Shown here: positions 17,344 to 23,266 of the stretch, one piece after another
Layout of the letters: the number at the start of each line of letters is the position of its first letter
Numbering within the stretch: the first letter of the stretch is position 1
Virus record (IMG/VR): IMGVR_UViG_3300037140_000192
Location: 1-56,996 of that record
Origin: a virus
Direction: 5' to 3' (one strand)
DNA length: 56,996 nt
Notes under the pieces: generated by a model
Told to the model about the DNA's origin: nothing
Databases searched by the model: none
The model's input: only the letters and a program-made list of their open reading frames with translations
Program-made: the position numbers and the translations under genes

Positions 17344-19908
17344 TTGGGGTTTTTTGGGGCACAGACGTTAGCAAAAGCCAGCGGTGATTCTGGGTCTGTT
17401 GATTTGTATCGCAGGTTGGGTTGCCGTGGATGCCCGCTGAATACAGCCGACCTTGACCACCCCAAGATGAAAGCGTCGGGCGATAAGCAGCCTGACATCT
17501 ACATATTGGGGGAAGCCCCTACCGCCGAGGATGATAAACAGGGCGAGCATTTTGCCGGCACATCGGGCCAGCTTTTGCTCAAACAGATTCCTAAGAAGTG
17601 GCGCGACCGAATACGCTTTAACAATGTCATCAATTGTAGAACGCCAGCCGGACGTGATCCTGAACCTATCGAGAGAGAGTGTTGCAGACCGCGTGTTGAA
17701 AAAGACATCATTGTTGCTCAGCCCCTAGCGATCTTCGGTATGGGGAATGTGCCCCTACATTGGGCGCTCCAACAGAATGGTATTGTCAAATGGCGTGGCA
17801 GGAAAATACCCGTCAAGATAGGTAACCACGTCTGCTGGTATTTCCCCATGCTGGACCCCACCTTTGTGGCCCGCTCAGCCCGCCGCAGCGGGGAATCCAA
17901 GGAGGAGCATGTTTTCCGCCTTGACCTGCGCCGGGCCTTTGCTGAGATCAACGATCTGCCCCCGCCCCCTTTCCATAGCCGGGAAAAGGCGTTCACGGGC
18001 CTCACAAGCGTCGACTGGTGCGATCCACGGGCGGCAGGGGACATTGTCCGCTTTCTGGAAAAGGCCGCCAGCGAGCCTGAATCCGGGCTTGACTATGAAA
18101 CCAGTCATTTGCGCCCTTACCGCCCCGAAACCAAAATCCTGTCCATTGGGATTGCAATCAAAGGTAAGGCGATTGCCTTCCCCTACGACCACCCAGAAGC
18201 CAAATGGAGTAAGCCGGCCAAGGAAATGATCCGGCAGGCTTTCCTCGCGTACCTGAAAGCCCCTGTCCGCAAGATAGCCCACAATTTGGCATTCGAGATG
18301 GAATGGACGGCGGTCAAATTTGGTAAGGAATTGTTGCGCGGTACCCAATGGGGTGACTCGATGGTCCAAGCCTATACCCTGGACGAAAGGGTGGGTGGTA
18401 AGCCGGATCAAGAGCAGGCATCAAAGGATACGAGTTGCCTTGGGTTGGGTTTCATCACACTCAACCGCTTTGGTATTAACATCAAGACGCTGTCTAATGT
18501 CGATACTAAAAACATGGAAAGCGAACCGCTGGAAGCGATCCTACCCTACAACGCGGTGGACGCCAAATACTGTCTCGAGCTGTTTTGGAACCAGGCCGAG
18601 GAATTGGAGCTGGATGGACTGACTAAACTATACCAGCGCCGCATTCGTCGTATTCCTACGCTTGTCCTAACACAAATCAAGGGGATGCCGGTCGACTTTG
18701 AGCAGGCCGACCGCCTCGATGACAAATTGAGCACGGCCATTGCCAAGGCGACAAAGGCCATCGCGACCGATCCGGATGTGGCAGCCTTCCGTAAGAAATA
18801 CAAAAAGGACTTTAAGCCCGGATCGGATACCGACTGTGTCAAGATGTTCCGCGATATTGTGGGGTCGGATGCTGGCAAGAGCGAAGGCTACAACGGCGGC
18901 GAGGCCAGCTATTCCGTAACCAAATCCGTGCTGGAAAAGATCGACGCCCCGATTGCCAAAAAGGTGTTGGACTGGCGCGCGCCGTCCAAGCTGGCGTCAA
19001 CTTATGTATGGCCCAAGGGTCACAAATACGTTTACCCTGATGGAAAGCTGCATCCGATATTGAATGGATTCAGTACGGTTACAGGTCGGTCGAGTTCAGA
19101 GGACCCAAATTCACAAAATCTGCCCAAGAGAACTGATGATGGAAAAGAAATCCGTCGTCAGATCGCCGCCCCTGAGGGCCATCTGCTTTGCTCCGTGGAT
19201 TACGGGCAGATTGAGGGTCGTTGTATAGCGATGGAGTCACAGGACAAAGTTTACGCTAAAATGCTCTGGGAAGATTATGACGTGCACATGGATTGGGCCG
19301 AGCAGATTGCTTACGAATTTCCTGTTGTTGTTGGGGGTAAGAAATACATAAAAGACAAAGGCGTCATGAAGGGTTTTCGCCAGACGGTTAAGGGTGGGTG
19401 GGTTTTCGCCCTGTTCTTTGGCGCGCAGCAATCGACCGCCGAAAGACAAGTGGGTTTGCCTGAGGGATCTCTGGGTAGGCTTTACAAGGAATTTTGGAAG
19501 ACCTTTTCAGGGGTCAAGGAATGGCAGGAACGCATCATCGCTGACTTCAAGGAGCAGGGGTATGTTGAGAATGCAATGGGAATACGACGCCGCGCCCCAA
19601 TCTCACCGAACCAGCTTATCAATGCCCCTATCCAAAATCTAGCGAGTGAAATTGTGATCGACGGAATGAACGCACTTTCGGAAAAGGAAGACTGGTATTT
19701 CCAGCCCATTTGTAATATCCATGATGATCTTACCAGTATCTTTCCAGTTAAGGGTTTTGATGATTATGCCGAGGAAAAGATTGATACCTTGCTGACTAAG
19801 ACCTACCCGTTCCTGAATGTGCCGCTGGTGGTGGAAATGTCCATCGGTCCTAATCTCTGTGATATGGACGAGATTGGTAAGTACGCATCTAACACGTGGA
19901 AAAAATAA
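17344..19908 (+). CDS. family A DNA polymerase with N-terminal UDG-like domain
   Basis: 854 residues in three domains. Residues 1-200 resemble a family 4 uracil-DNA glycosylase: C27/C30 and C98/C114 (spacing of the 4Fe-4S ligands), GEAPTAEDDKQGEHFAGTSG motif 1; the usual HP of motif 2 appears as DP (MLDPTF), so catalysis is doubtful. Residues ~245-420 form the 3'-5' exonuclease (LDYET, AHNLAFE, YNAVDAK). The palm/fingers follow: motif A VDYGQIEGR, motif B around RQTVKGGWVFALFFG, motif C IHDD. The start is an unusual TTG, because the adjacent HNH gene carries the ATG copy. It should be the replicative polymerase. Confidence 0.88.
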   Translation: MGFFGAQTLAKASGDSGSVDLYRRLGCRGCPLNTADLDHPKMKASGDKQPDIYILGEAPTAEDDKQGEHFAGTSGQLLLKQIPKKWRDRIRFNNVINCRTPAGRDPEPIERECCRPRVEKDIIVAQPLAIFGMGNVPLHWALQQNGIVKWRGRKIPVKIGNHVCWYFPMLDPTFVARSARRSGESKEEHVFRLDLRRAFAEINDLPPPPFHSREKAFTGLTSVDWCDPRAAGDIVRFLEKAASEPESGLDYETSHLRPYRPETKILSIGIAIKGKAIAFPYDHPEAKWSKPAKEMIRQAFLAYLKAPVRKIAHNLAFEMEWTAVKFGKELLRGTQWGDSMVQAYTLDERVGGKPDQEQASKDTSCLGLGFITLNRFGINIKTLSNVDTKNMESEPLEAILPYNAVDAKYCLELFWNQAEELELDGLTKLYQRRIRRIPTLVLTQIKGMPVDFEQADRLDDKLSTAIAKATKAIATDPDVAAFRKKYKKDFKPGSDTDCVKMFRDIVGSDAGKSEGYNGGEASYSVTKSVLEKIDAPIAKKVLDWRAPSKLASTYVWPKGHKYVYPDGKLHPILNGFSTVTGRSSSEDPNSQNLPKRTDDGKEIRRQIAAPEGHLLCSVDYGQIEGRCIAMESQDKVYAKMLWEDYDVHMDWAEQIAYEFPVVVGGKKYIKDKGVMKGFRQTVKGGWVFALFFGAQQSTAERQVGLPEGSLGRLYKEFWKTFSGVKEWQERIIADFKEQGYVENAMGIRRRAPISPNQLINAPIQNLASEIVIDGMNALSEKEDWYFQPICNIHDDLTSIFPVKGFDDYAEEKIDTLLTKTYPFLNVPLVVEMSIGPNLCDMDEIGKYASNTWKK

Positions 19909-19909
19909 G

Positions 19910-20947
19910 ATGGCAAAATACAAAAGTCTCTTCGAGAAGGACGCCGTGTTTGAAACCCACGGGGGTGGACTCGTCGATAAATTTGGGATACCGCCGTTTT
20001 CAGTGCTGGATGCGCGGCAGGGTGAATGGCAAGATCGGAAGGCTGCGTGGTTATCCTTGGGGATGGATCGGGTGCTGGGTCGGGCGGAGAATCTTTTACG
20101 ATTCAGTGCCGCTGCCAAAGACCCTCGTTATTTCAAGGAAAAGGTGGATCAGCAAAATCGCGATAAGGCGCGAGGTGGGAACGGGAAGGCTAAGGGTAGC
20201 GCCGAAGGCGCTACCCTTAGGGATGATCCGGTATCCCGAAAGATAAACACTTCTGGCCAAACAGGCACGTCGTCGTTTGACCCCGTGCTTTGCGAGCTGA
20301 TGTATAAATGGTTTGTGCCGAAGGGTGGGTTTGTTTTTGACCCGTTTGTGGGTGGTTGCTGTGCCGGTATTGTGGCATCTAAGTTGGGTTACAAATACTT
20401 GGGAACGGATATCCGACCCGAGCAGGTCGAGGCAAACAACGAACAGGCTCAAAGGATTTGTAAAACCAATACTCCCAAATACGTGGTTTGCGATGCGCGA
20501 AGTTCAGCAAAGGTTGTAAAGCCTGAATCATTGGACTGTATTTACAGTTGTCCTCCGTACGTTGATCTCGAACAATATAGTAATGATCCACAAGATATCT
20601 CCACGTTGAAATGGGACAAGTTTGAGCCCGAGTATTCTGGCATCATAGAAAGTGTCGTTACTCGATTGAAACTAAACCGCTTTGCTATTTTTGTAGTTGG
20701 GGAAGTCAGGGGCAAGGATGGTAATTGTGTGGGGTTTGTTCCTGGGACGATAAATGCTTTCCAACGCGCCGGGCTGCATCTTTACAACGATGCAATCCGT
20801 TTGACGATGTTGGGCAGCCTTAGTATCCGGGCCGGTCGTCCTTTTAACGCCACGCGCAAGCTAGGTCGAACTCATCAGCACGTACTCATATTTCTTAAAG
20901 GGTCCGCTGATAAAGCTGTCGCGGCAATAAAGGAAAGCGGTAATTGA
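19910..20947 (+). CDS. DNA methyltransferase (N4/N6 class)
   Basis: 345 residues. VFDPFVGGCCAGIVASKLG (AdoMet motif I), YLGTDIRPEQVEANN (motif II) and IYSCPPYVDLEQYS (the catalytic PPY motif in SCPPY form) identify an amino-methyltransferase that modifies adenine or cytosine exocyclic nitrogens. The opening segment FGIPPFSVLDARQGEWQDRK is typical of phage methylases of this group. Probably protects phage DNA against host restriction. ATG at 19910 follows the polymerase stop by one base. The coding region contains a perfect hairpin (20190-20220) within a Gly/Lys-rich linker. Confidence 0.82.
   Translation: MAKYKSLFEKDAVFETHGGGLVDKFGIPPFSVLDARQGEWQDRKAAWLSLGMDRVLGRAENLLRFSAAAKDPRYFKEKVDQQNRDKARGGNGKAKGSAEGATLRDDPVSRKINTSGQTGTSSFDPVLCELMYKWFVPKGGFVFDPFVGGCCAGIVASKLGYKYLGTDIRPEQVEANNEQAQRICKTNTPKYVVCDARSSAKVVKPESLDCIYSCPPYVDLEQYSNDPQDISTLKWDKFEPEYSGIIESVVTRLKLNRFAIFVVGEVRGKDGNCVGFVPGTINAFQRAGLHLYNDAIRLTMLGSLSIRAGRPFNATRKLGRTHQHVLIFLKGSADKAVAAIKESGN
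20190..20220. repeat. perfect 14-bp inverted repeat inside the methyltransferase gene
   Basis: CTAAGGGTAGCGCC (20190-20203) and GGCGCTACCCTTAG (20207-20220) are exact reverse complements around the triloop GAA. The element encodes part of a linker (KAKGSAEGATLRD) between conserved segments, so an inserted palindromic element would be tolerated there. The core GGTAGCGC recurs three times at 31866-31958. Confidence 0.85.
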
Positions 20948-20948
20948 T

Positions 20949-21272
20949 ATGAGATTGGTGATTGTGGAAAGCCCATACGCCGGAGATGTTGAGGCTAATC
21001 TAAAATATGCGCGGTCGGCCCTGTGTGATTGCTTGTTAAAGGGCGAAGCTCCGTTCGCATCTCATTTGCTTTACACCCAGCCAGGTATCCTGCGCGATGA
21101 AGTAATTGAAGAGCGCCAATGGGGTATTGATGCCGGTTTGGCTTGGGGCGCTGTTGCCGCTGCTACGGTAGTTTATACGGATCGTGGAATATCGCGGGGT
21201 ATGGAGTACGGAATAGCTGCTGCAAAAGTTGCGGGGCGTCCCATTGAATACAGGACCTTGAGGCATACATGA
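20949..21272 (+). CDS. DUF4406/DUF7768-like nucleoside-processing-fold protein
   Basis: 107 residues. The pattern VIVESPYAGDVEANLKYARS, APFASHLLYTQPGIL, and TDRGISRGMEYGIAAAK is that of small phage proteins with a nucleoside 2-deoxyribosyltransferase-like fold. Exact activity unknown; a role in nucleotide metabolism is inferred from fold only. The stop overlaps the clamp-loader start by 4 bp. Confidence 0.65.
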   Translation: MRLVIVESPYAGDVEANLKYARSALCDCLLKGEAPFASHLLYTQPGILRDEVIEERQWGIDAGLAWGAVAAATVVYTDRGISRGMEYGIAAAKVAGRPIEYRTLRHT

Positions 21273-23266
21273 CCGAATCCCTCTACCTTAAATACCGTCC
21301 CAAGACCTTTGAAGATGTGATCGGTCAGGACGCCGTGGTTACATCCTTGCGGCGTGTCCTCAAATCCAAGAGCAACCACACCTTTTTGTTCTCCGGTCCA
21401 TCGGGTACGGGCAAGACCACGTTGGCCCGCATCCTTGCTACCGAAGTGGGGGCCAAGGACCACGCCATTCAGGAGATCGACGCTGCGACTTTTACCAGCA
21501 TCGATGACATGAGGCGGATTACCGAAACCTTGGGCTACAAAATGCACGGTCGCAGCCAGGCCCGCGTGATTATTGTAGATGAATGTTTTGCTCCAGGAAC
21601 GTTGATTGATGTTGGTAATGGGTTTTTGCCAATTGAGCAGATTGGTGTGGGGCAAGAAATTGTGTGCGGGCTTGGGTTGTCGCGGGTTAGTTCTGTTTTT
21701 CGGTCCAAGATTCCTCTTGCAAGGGTTATGCAAATAAGCATAGGATCATCCTCTATTTGTTGCTCTAAAGAGCATTTGTTTTTTACAGCTAGGGGGTGGG
21801 TTGCCGCGTGCGATCTACAAATTGGTGATGAATTACAGAGCAAAAAGACGTTGGACCAAAACTTGCTCCTCATGTGGGATAAGTTTTCAAGCCAGAGCGC
21901 CAAACAAAATAACTTGCACCACTTGCCTGCGAAGGCAGTGCCCGGTTTGTGGGGAGCCTTTTTATGTGCGTTCAAATGGTTTGGGAATTCAGACTTGTTC
22001 GAAAGTTTGTGGAGACGAGTTGGGGGCATCAAAAAGAACTGGGCCGCGTCCAGATTATTGGAAAGAAGCTGTTTCTCGTGGGGTTTTGGAATCTCGTATT
22101 CGTTCCCCGGAGTATTACAAAAAGCTGGACCGTTTGTCTTCCAAACGGATGCAGAAAAACAACCCCACAAAACGACGGGATGTAATCGACAAAATTATAG
22201 CTACCAGAATAAAAAATGGGACGAACTTAATTCTTCCGGAAAATCGGGGTGGGAATGGAAAACTAACGAAGCCCCAGGTTATGTTACTAAAGCGTTTGAA
22301 CTGTGCGGTAGAGTTTGCTGTTTCTTTGGGGAAAAGGTTACCCGGATACCCTACAAATTACAAAGTGGATTTGGCTTTTCCGCATATAAAATTAGCAATA
22401 GAAGTAGATGGGAAAGGGCACAATTCGGAACGAAATCAAGCGAAGGATCGCAAAAAGGAAAAGAAACTGGAATCTTTAGGGTGGACAGTGTTACGAGTTA
22501 CCAACGAGCAGGTATTGAAATTTTGCCCGCAAGTTGTAACCGAGATCAAGCGTTGTGTGATGGCTATGTCACGTTCTACGATTTAGAGATTGAAAAGCAT
22601 CCGTCATATTTTGTAAATAATGTATTGGTGCATAATTGCCATCGCCTCGGAGCGCCGGCATGGGCGTCCCTGCTTAAATCATTGGAAGAGCCGCCGCCAG
22701 ATACGTGGTGGTGCCTCTGCACGACCGAGCTGGGGAAAATCCCCACCAATATCAAAACCCGCTGCACGGCTTACAACTTAAAAGATGTACCAACCAACCT
22801 GATCATCGACCTGTTAGAAAGCGTAGCCGTTGCCGAGAAAATCCTTCAGACGGGTGCGGGCCGTCAAATCGTATCGCTCTGCGCCAAGGAGGCGCACGGC
22901 AGCCCGCGTGCTGGCCTTGTTGCGCTGGGTGCGTGTGCCGGGGCCAAGACCATCGAGGAAGCCCGTGATCTGCTCCGTAGCGCCGAGGAAAGCACCGAGG
23001 CGGTCGATTTGGCCCGTGCCTTGGTAGCGGGACGGCCCTGGGGTGAAATCAGGGATATCCTGGTTGGTCTGAAGGAAAAGGATGTCAATCCGGAATCAAT
23101 TCGCCACGTTGTACGCGGCTATGTGACTTCGGTCATTATGGGCACCAAGGGCGAGCCCAAAGGTAGCCTGTTCGCCGTGCTGGAAGCCTTCGCGCAGCCT
23201 TTCGCGCAAGGCGATGGGATCAGCCCTCTCGTGCTGGCCTGCGGTACTTTAGTGCTGGGTGGGTAG
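21269..23266 (+). CDS. clamp loader ATPase (DnaX/RFC-like) interrupted by an intein
   Basis: 665 codons. The exteins make a 314-residue AAA+ clamp loader: KYRPKTFEDVIGQDAVVTSL opening, Walker A GPSGTGKT (43-50), Walker B VIIVDE-CH, sensor-1 region and a collar-like C-terminal domain. It would open and place the sliding clamp using ATP. The frame is interrupted at the Walker B motif (VIIVDE|CHRLGAPAWASLLK) by residues 106-456, an intein that must splice out for ATPase function. ATGA overlap with the previous gene. Confidence 0.88.
   Translation: MTESLYLKYRPKTFEDVIGQDAVVTSLRRVLKSKSNHTFLFSGPSGTGKTTLARILATEVGAKDHAIQEIDAATFTSIDDMRRITETLGYKMHGRSQARVIIVDECFAPGTLIDVGNGFLPIEQIGVGQEIVCGLGLSRVSSVFRSKIPLARVMQISIGSSSICCSKEHLFFTARGWVAACDLQIGDELQSKKTLDQNLLLMWDKFSSQSAKQNNLHHLPAKAVPGLWGAFLCAFKWFGNSDLFESLWRRVGGIKKNWAASRLLERSCFSWGFGISYSFPGVLQKAGPFVFQTDAEKQPHKTTGCNRQNYSYQNKKWDELNSSGKSGWEWKTNEAPGYVTKAFELCGRVCCFFGEKVTRIPYKLQSGFGFSAYKISNRSRWERAQFGTKSSEGSQKGKETGIFRVDSVTSYQRAGIEILPASCNRDQALCDGYVTFYDLEIEKHPSYFVNNVLVHNCHRLGAPAWASLLKSLEEPPPDTWWCLCTTELGKIPTNIKTRCTAYNLKDVPTNLIIDLLESVAVAEKILQTGAGRQIVSLCAKEAHGSPRAGLVALGACAGAKTIEEARDLLRSAEESTEAVDLARALVAGRPWGEIRDILVGLKEKDVNPESIRHVVRGYVTSVIMGTKGEPKGSLFAVLEAFAQPFAQGDGISPLVLACGTLVLGG
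21584..22636 (+). mobile_element. intein in the clamp loader (351 codons)
   Basis: Cys1 with block A CFAPGTLIDVGNG, block B CSKEHLFFTARGWVAACDLQ followed by GDEL, block F VTFYDLEIEKHPSYFVNNV and block G VLVHN with C-extein Cys+1 (CHRL): a standard Cys1/Asn-Cys splicing set. Insertion is at the catalytic DE of Walker B, a favoured intein site. The ~250 codons between blocks B and F are W/F/S/C-rich and look like an off-frame translation, because another gene occupies that stretch in the +1 frame. There is no stop codon in the intein frame. Confidence 0.9.
21801..22586 (+). CDS. EDxHD/Vsr-like homing endonuclease nested in the intein in the +1 frame
   Basis: 261 residues from TTG at 21801 (after AGGGGGTGGG) or 252 from ATG at 21828. 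The N-terminus carries paired zinc motifs (TCSSC ... TCTTC; CPVC ... TCSKVC). The C-terminus has a Vsr/DUF559-like nuclease fold: D190 in NYKVDLAF, E201 and D203 and H207 in AIEVDGKGHN, D216 in AKDRKKEK, then LGWTVLRVTNEQV. This fits the E-D-x-H-D pattern of the endonuclease family found with split inteins in fractured genes and with I-Bth0305I. The gene starts within block B and its TAG overlaps block F, so it fills exactly the endonuclease slot of the intein but in another frame. Confidence 0.85.
   Translation: MPRAIYKLVMNYRAKRRWTKTCSSCGISFQARAPNKITCTTCLRRQCPVCGEPFYVRSNGLGIQTCSKVCGDELGASKRTGPRPDYWKEAVSRGVLESRIRSPEYYKKLDRLSSKRMQKNNPTKRRDVIDKIIATRIKNGTNLILPENRGGNGKLTKPQVMLLKRLNCAVEFAVSLGKRLPGYPTNYKVDLAFPHIKLAIEVDGKGHNSERNQAKDRKKEKKLESLGWTVLRVTNEQVLKFCPQVVTEIKRCVMAMSRSTI

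Follow-up and report, generated by a model that had tools for sequence, protein, structure and literature searches.

How can a single segment of viral DNA encode a protein-splicing element and, in another reading frame, the endonuclease that would make it mobile? The question is raised by a virus sequence of 56,996 nucleotides (IMG/VR record IMGVR_UViG_3300037140_000192, positions 1 to 56,996; the whole stretch is hereafter called the window), in which an intein interrupts a clamp-loader gene and a homing endonuclease (HEN) of the EDxHD/Vsr type is encoded within the intein in the +1 frame. We read the element as a stable, mobile, double-coded intein whose HEN is a separate overlapping gene, with a probability of about 0.9.

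A single unbroken open reading frame (ORF; 21269..23266, plus strand, 665 residues) spans the N-extein, the intein and the C-extein. The host protein is a phage DnaX-like clamp loader (match to phrog_5846, E 5.2e-55), which a segment of 351 residues splits after the Asp-Glu of Walker B. The segment opens with Cys-Phe, closes with His-Asn and is followed by Cys; Cys1 (21584-21586) stands directly after VIIVDE and the terminal VHN ends at 22636. Residues C1, F2, H64 and N351 are invariant in 48 of 48 aligned inteins (alignment A6), and the +1 extein residue, Cys in the window, is Cys or Ser in 86 of 86 loci. The structure model (mean predicted local distance difference test score, pLDDT, 68) is confident in both Hint halves (88-98 over residues 1-100 and 87-97 over residues 301-351, in ten-residue blocks), and among solved structures the gp41-1 intein comes closest to it (structure match 6qaz, E 4.1e-7; profile match E 1.3e-21, best over the N-terminal half). 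Residue 1, the block B His, the C-terminal Asn, the +1 residue and the Hint fold are those of a class 1 intein. Pfam searches of both frames returned DNA_pol3_delta2 and AAA in the exteins and DUF559 in the HEN, with Intein_splicing below its cut-off (25.7 vs 35.8 bits); run against the window's own record, the latter model gave a single sub-threshold match, at the C-terminal half.

The HEN ORF (21801..22586, TTG start) lies +1 to the intein frame (21801-21584 = 217 = 3x72+1). It carries Cys motifs and a DUF559/Vsr-like C-terminal domain (Pfam DUF559, 4e-12; the NCBIfam Vsr match is weak, 4.9e-4, and below cut-off), and E201, D203, H207 and D216 are invariant in 21 of 21 aligned sequences (alignment A1). 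Its model has a mean pLDDT of 83 (93-98 over residues 191-260, in ten-residue blocks). The best PDB structure match, and the sole one at E <= 0.001, is the catalytic domain of I-Bth0305I (3r3p, about 8e-4), while profile searches return 3hrl (8.8e-14) and 3r3p (8.4e-4). Catalytic core and Vsr-like fold place the protein among the EDxHD/Vsr endonucleases. A first-pass annotation made from the sequence alone had proposed both the Cys1 intein with its Cys+1 extein and the +1-frame endonuclease, and both are borne out. It had also placed the HEN start inside the block B motif GDEL; ATG 21828 is kept there as an alternative, but the start may lie upstream, at TTG 21801 behind AGGGGG.

Is the open intein frame a matter of chance? 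If the HEN protein is held constant and its synonymous codons are sampled from flanking usage, 16.1 stops are expected in the window and a stop-free frame has p = 4.4e-9 (p = 2.5e-11 with the HEN's own codon usage), which is stronger than the naive 5e-6 estimated earlier. Relatives provide a broader measure. Loci were collected by HEN searches of viral_contigs, genome_contigs and isolate phages, inteins being sampled through their HENs because a scan with alignment A6 gave no usable pattern; L198 and L201 came from a helicase DNA search and cluster with the HEN-found phages. All 28 relatives were kept in the first viral_contigs search, as were the best 80 of 282 in genome_contigs and the best 80 of 258, 331 and 273 in viral_contigs; two of these scans listed at least 600 rows. 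L-numbers denote surveyed loci, the window being L001 (identical DNA over this region), and clusters were set at 90% HEN identity. A first round gave 195 loci in 151 clusters, 93 with a HEN score of at least 85, and 85 of these 93 had both Hint halves, the same phase and zero intein-frame stops. For the second round, which left out three loci that repeat the window (L029, L030, L203) and four loci without a HEN (L196, L197, L200, L202), 353 loci were entered; one fell below the HEN threshold, and the other 352 formed 247 clusters. Of these, 56 weak clusters that lack a Hint on the same strand (mostly Rhizobiales by the first-round list) were put aside, and 191 are left.

In 177 of these 191 clusters, the HEN is nested in the +1 frame between both Hint halves and the intein frame is stop-free. 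Six more are stop-free with one Hint half detected (L017, L042, L048, L182, L222, L256; four at contig ends). The remaining eight are exceptions: L008, L279 and L322 have both Hint halves and 1, 26 and 15 stops, respectively, L025 has one Hint half and 14 stops, and L028, L047, L225 and L315 have no Hint. The zero frame of the relatives, to which the first-pass annotation had pointed as decisive, is open as a rule. With Hint profiles built from nested loci, in-frame fusions of HEN and intein number 0 of 191. The nested +1 arrangement also occurs in isolate phages, nine records of which carry the HEN without an annotation of its own (phi673, MR14, phage 24, 1.194.O, 159E43-1b, 1.088.O, K391, 103E44.1, CP-T1). 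A sequencing or assembly indel that hides a HEN truly in frame with the intein has a probability close to nil: one phase is shared by 177 clusters, isolate genomes included, there are no in-frame fusions, and an indel could not produce the avoidance of stops at the level of codons described below. This artefact, raised at the outset as a possible refutation, is therefore excluded. A group I or II intron was considered as well, and Rfam at gathering thresholds gave no match in the six loci searched (L025, L028, L047, L008, L193, L190).

In all 86 loci examined, the insertion lies at DE/C, at DEAH/C or within a few residues of these. The host genes are mostly clamp loaders and helicases (Helicase_C in 39/86, DNA_pol3_delta2 in 32/86, SNF2 in 15/86). 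One host protein (L022, 2242-5613) apparently contains two inteins, one near the P-loop and one with a nested HEN at Walker B. Plasmids yield partial HEN matches in nine records (at most 36% of the HEN; eight annotated as DUF559, one unannotated).

The intein frame is kept open by the choice of HEN codons. In the 177 nested loci, no HEN codon that ends in T is followed by AA, AG or GA (0/12,231, vs 7,756/31,192 elsewhere); the intein frame has 0 stops where 2,523 are expected, and the unused third frame has 3,255 where 2,362 are expected. These loci were labelled open by their lack of stops. Hence, the fair measures are the 177 of 191 open clusters and a first-round count over 91 loci, in which up to one stop was allowed (leaving out L025, L028 and L047): it gives 1 stop, against 1,412 expected from flanking usage and 1,035 from own usage. 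The exteins of 86 nested loci show no such signature (2,944/12,807 vs 7,931/34,752). In 57 distant relatives that lack a Hint on the same strand, one of them the antisense L193, the count is 390/2,395 vs 2,063/9,115; among the exceptions it is 14/85 in L025, 14/67 in L028, 2/51 in L047, 26/100 vs 54/162 in L279 and 15/90 vs 45/155 in L322. Counts in L322, L047 and the distant relatives are somewhat low, yet not near zero. Openness of the intein frame is thus maintained by codon choice and looks like a stable state, and the suggestion of a stable overlapping-gene design is supported by recurrence and by codon evidence alike. What appears to be another kind of double coding occurs in locus L193 (2833-3612; Vibrio phage 1.266.O, MG592631): a gene with a Hint/intein, two genes away from that of the major capsid protein, has an EDxHD-like HEN ORF (HMM score 37) on its antisense strand.

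Why is one phase used throughout? Each intein codon consists of base 3 of one HEN codon and bases 1-2 of the next. A stop in this phase needs a T at the third base of a HEN codon, and NNT and NNC are always synonymous, so that double coding is open to every endonuclease protein. Stops beyond the reach of synonymous changes occur in 0 of 86 HENs in the used phase; in the other sense phase, where Met followed by I, M, T, N or K forces TGA, the count is 83 of 86. Such a pair is present in 170 of 177 nested HENs. The corresponding numbers for the three antisense phases are 75, 71 and 0 of 86. For the window HEN, the unavoidable stops are 0 in the used phase and 1 in the other sense phase.

This rule also bears on how the HEN would be made. 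The Shine-Dalgarno-like sequence before the first HEN start has a duplex energy of -6 kcal/mol or below in 31% of 87 loci, compared to 13% of 1,032 late in-frame starts and 10% of 691 third-frame control starts. The best early HEN start reaches this value in 52 of 86 loci and beats the same-locus null (p<0.05) in 33 of 86. The Gly-Asp codons of block B form a Shine-Dalgarno-like site in L009, L016, L019 and L039, and a G[DE] pair lies over the start region in 23 of 86 loci. The HEN is therefore likely to be translated separately by internal initiation, as far as such signals can tell. Programmed +1 ribosomal frameshifting near block B would instead produce a fusion of N-extein, Hint and HEN. 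It would agree with the +1 position of the HEN in all 177 nested clusters and with a HEN frame whose open stretch begins before the start chosen for it, by a median of 10 codons, but the avoidance of stops alone accounts for the phase and strong Shine-Dalgarno-like sequences precede the HEN starts in many loci, so we regard frameshifting as unlikely.

Which of the two frames is under selection, a point left to be settled by the first-pass annotation, can be read from closely related pairs. In four pairs (L194/L198 and L194/L199, which share one member, L195/L201 and L026/L027; six pairs were entered, of which L165/L188 was omitted for unequal length), substitutions that are silent in the HEN and change the intein number 55 over ~516 sites, whereas those that change the HEN and are silent in the intein number 5 over ~583. 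Changes in both frames number 17 over ~1,489 sites and doubly silent ones 6 over ~24. Of 18 pairs entered for identity, L165/L188 and L009/L010, both with a zero-length flank, and the identical L012/L013 drop out; in 15 of the other 15, the intein frame is less conserved in identity than the HEN. Purifying selection acts mainly on the HEN frame; the linker is under looser constraint, though perhaps still under some. Together with the low confidence of most of the linker in the model (some helices are predicted within residues 92-159), this supports the view that the linker is overprinted. That the linker itself is a selected functional domain would fit conserved stretches such as ISNKLQSG-like ones and the faster change of doubly silent sites, although these numbers are small. 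The ISNKLQSG-like stretch, however, appears from the alignments to lie approximately opposite the HEN motif GYPTNYKVD, and the identity comparison and the pLDDT of 37-57 over residues 111-290 speak against a functional linker, which makes it very improbable.

A further question is how the element relates to fractured genes, which are said to have been described by Dassa et al. in 2009 in a phage setting with split inteins and Vsr-like/EDxHD HENs, a gp41-1-like intein and the HEN between the halves. In those, the intein halves are reportedly separate genes, whereas in the window they are one frame (ORF 21269-23266) that overlaps the HEN. Two loci of the survey, L279 (with L345) and L322, resemble fractured genes; they share HEN family, intein type and phase with the nested elements and no longer avoid stops. 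In both, the N-terminal half ends just after block B, the likely ATG of the C-terminal half falls within the HEN gene, at its 3' end, and neither intein half departs from the phase seen in nested loci; nested and fractured states differ here by stops and starts. The HENs of L279 and L322 are 55% identical and may not be independent. L025 looks like a released HEN, with a decayed linker and an intact endonuclease ORF. The proposal that the window element is a precursor or a reversal of a fractured gene thus holds for the link alone, which may run in either direction. Could the window element be transitional, a fractured gene with split intein and free HEN that is stop-free by chance or about to gain stops? 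The fractured-looking loci, L008 with its single stop and the closeness to gp41-1, an intein that reportedly sits in a fractured gene, would be in line with this. In contrast, openness is the rule, held by codon choice, and fractured-looking forms are rare (2 or 3 of 191), so that we consider a transitional state distinctly unlikely.

Mobility of the double-coded intein is suggested by empty sites and by a signature of transfer. The empty sites come from three pairs of isolate phages, each with an insert-free partner and a precise insertion. The helicases of phi673 and phi674 are 99.1% identical where aligned and differ by a 906-bp intein, with Val replaced by Cys at +1; phage 24 and vB_VchM-138 (96.4% identical) likewise differ by the intein, with Ala replaced by Cys at +1; and 1.194.O has a clean insertion of 1,068 bp relative to 141E35-1 (86.8%). 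At the 1.194.O intein site, Vibrio phage 268E42.1 (L200, 301-2385) has an insertion of 450 bp (150 residues) that resembles a HEN-less mini-intein. Inteins are more similar than their N-/C-exteins in L026/L027 (99.0% vs 78.6/78.0), L194/L198 (95.8% vs 78.2/76.4), L194/L199 (97.4% vs 93.4/82.2) and L198/L199 (94.4% vs 78.2/80.6), with a weak contrast in L195/L201 (95.3% vs 90.0/92.1); part of this contrast may stem from the overlap being constrained twice. Homing by the nested HEN is thus indicated indirectly. In L315 (2938-3582), an intein-less member of the HEN family lies immediately upstream of an uninterrupted helicase gene and overlaps it, possibly a case of intronless homing.

Several points weigh against a stable, mobile, double-coded intein. 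Splicing, expression and cleavage are predictions, and the ribosome-binding signal is a statistical one, with a median per-locus null p of 0.195 and 53 of 86 loci not below 0.05. The rate of HEN-silent, intein-changing substitutions (0.107 per site) is lower than that of doubly silent ones, in small numbers, so that some constraint may act on the linker as well. Mantel correlations (HEN-Hint 0.65, HEN-extein 0.68, Hint-extein 0.65) fail to distinguish whether inheritance follows the intein or the host gene. The Hint profiles derive from nested loci and may miss fractured forms or HENs that are fused to inteins of another type. Moreover, clusters drawn at 90% identity lack phylogenetic independence, and the larger scans contributed their best-scoring relatives.

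The closest report we found is that of the ShiLan domain and the Pacc40 insertion, where methylases of actinophages contain HNH endonucleases that are out of frame (PMC11855218, 2025). There, too, a homing-type endonuclease occupies a different frame of an insertion and the host frame gains no stop. Its authors state that there is no intein or intron, no splicing and no detectable ribosome-binding site. The ShiLan element is an HNH endonuclease without an intein, whereas a complete Hint intein surrounds a DUF559/EDxHD HEN here, across ATPase families and in one phase. Canonical intein endonucleases, e.g. PI-SceI, are in-frame fusions with the intein (PMC3943268); they share Hint blocks, a HEN between the splicing halves and a conserved insertion site with the window element, in which the HEN is out of frame. 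I-Bth0305I, the best structural and profile match to the HEN and deposited as a mobile intron protein, is described as intron-associated (PMC3943268) and is not double-coded with an intein. For overlapping reading frames, PMC11855218 cites Gosselin et al. 2025 (bioRxiv 10.1101/2025.01.02.630785) and Gorbalenya 1998. The former ('Actinobacteriophage Inteins ... Non-Canonical Architecture') may describe out-of-frame HENs in true inteins. Priority for the double-coded intein is thus uncertain, and the literature search, with preprints and most subscription papers outside its reach, recognised no report of an out-of-frame HEN inside a splicing intein. We file the window element as a variant on known inteins, a true intein that an EDxHD gene overlaps out of frame.

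Table 1. Features of the clamp-loader locus in the window.
Feature	Position	Strand	Basis or remarks
N-extein, phage DnaX-like clamp loader	21269..21583	+	Walker A GPSGTGKT ~21395-21418; Walker B VIIVDE ends 21583
Intein, 351 aa, Cys1...His-Asn, at Walker B DE/C	21584..22636	+	sequence, alignment, structure and profile matches
N-terminal Hint half, blocks A and B	21584..21853	+	pLDDT 88-98, residues 1-100; Cys1, Phe2, His64 invariant (A6)
AGGGGG, Shine-Dalgarno-like, before HEN TTG start	21791..21796	+	duplex -8.7 kcal/mol
EDxHD/Vsr-type HEN ORF, 261 codons and TAG, +1 frame	21801..22586	+	alternative ATG 21828 gives 252 aa
Overprinted intein-frame linker, stop-free	21854..22474	+	pLDDT 37-57, residues 111-290; codon and selection tests
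HEN catalytic core E201, D203, H207, D216	22401..22448	+	invariant in alignment A1
C-terminal Hint half, blocks F and G, ...VLVHN	22475..22636	+	alignment A6, structure model
C-extein of clamp loader, +1 Cys, with stop	22637..23266	+	ORF, Pfam

Contig IMGVR_UViG_3300037141_000243 carries identical DNA (9,995 of 9,995 bases compared) and may represent the same virus. Upstream in the window, a family A DNA polymerase ORF (17344-19908) has a domain of the uracil-DNA glycosylase superfamily at its N-terminus as well as an exonuclease domain (Pfam), and a gene with an N6_N4 DNA methylase domain (19817-20947) lies two genes upstream of the clamp loader.

Taken as a double-coded intein, the element would work as follows. 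Host gene, intein and linker would be translated as one frame, and the two Hint halves would fold around the loosely structured linker and, judging from the family, splice the clamp loader. The linker would be the HEN gene read out of phase and kept mainly stop-free. The HEN would most likely be translated alone, from ribosome-binding sites buried in the 5' coding region of the intein, and would cut intein-free alleles at the Walker B codons, as empty sites and transfer signatures suggest; repair would then copy the whole element. Splicing and mobility would be uncoupled as proteins while sharing one DNA segment, and hence each could evolve and be expressed alone. In this phase, silent changes suffice to make any HEN protein compatible with an open intein frame, and thus nested and fractured states could interconvert by point mutations without indels. 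We give even odds that such loci form a widespread, undescribed class of double-coded inteins that interconverts in this way and is a source (or sink) of natural split inteins. The arrangement reveals an endonuclease gene that lacks its own annotation in the isolate phage records examined, provides a simple rule on the phase of overprinting and suggests a path, open to test, that leads to split inteins or away from them.

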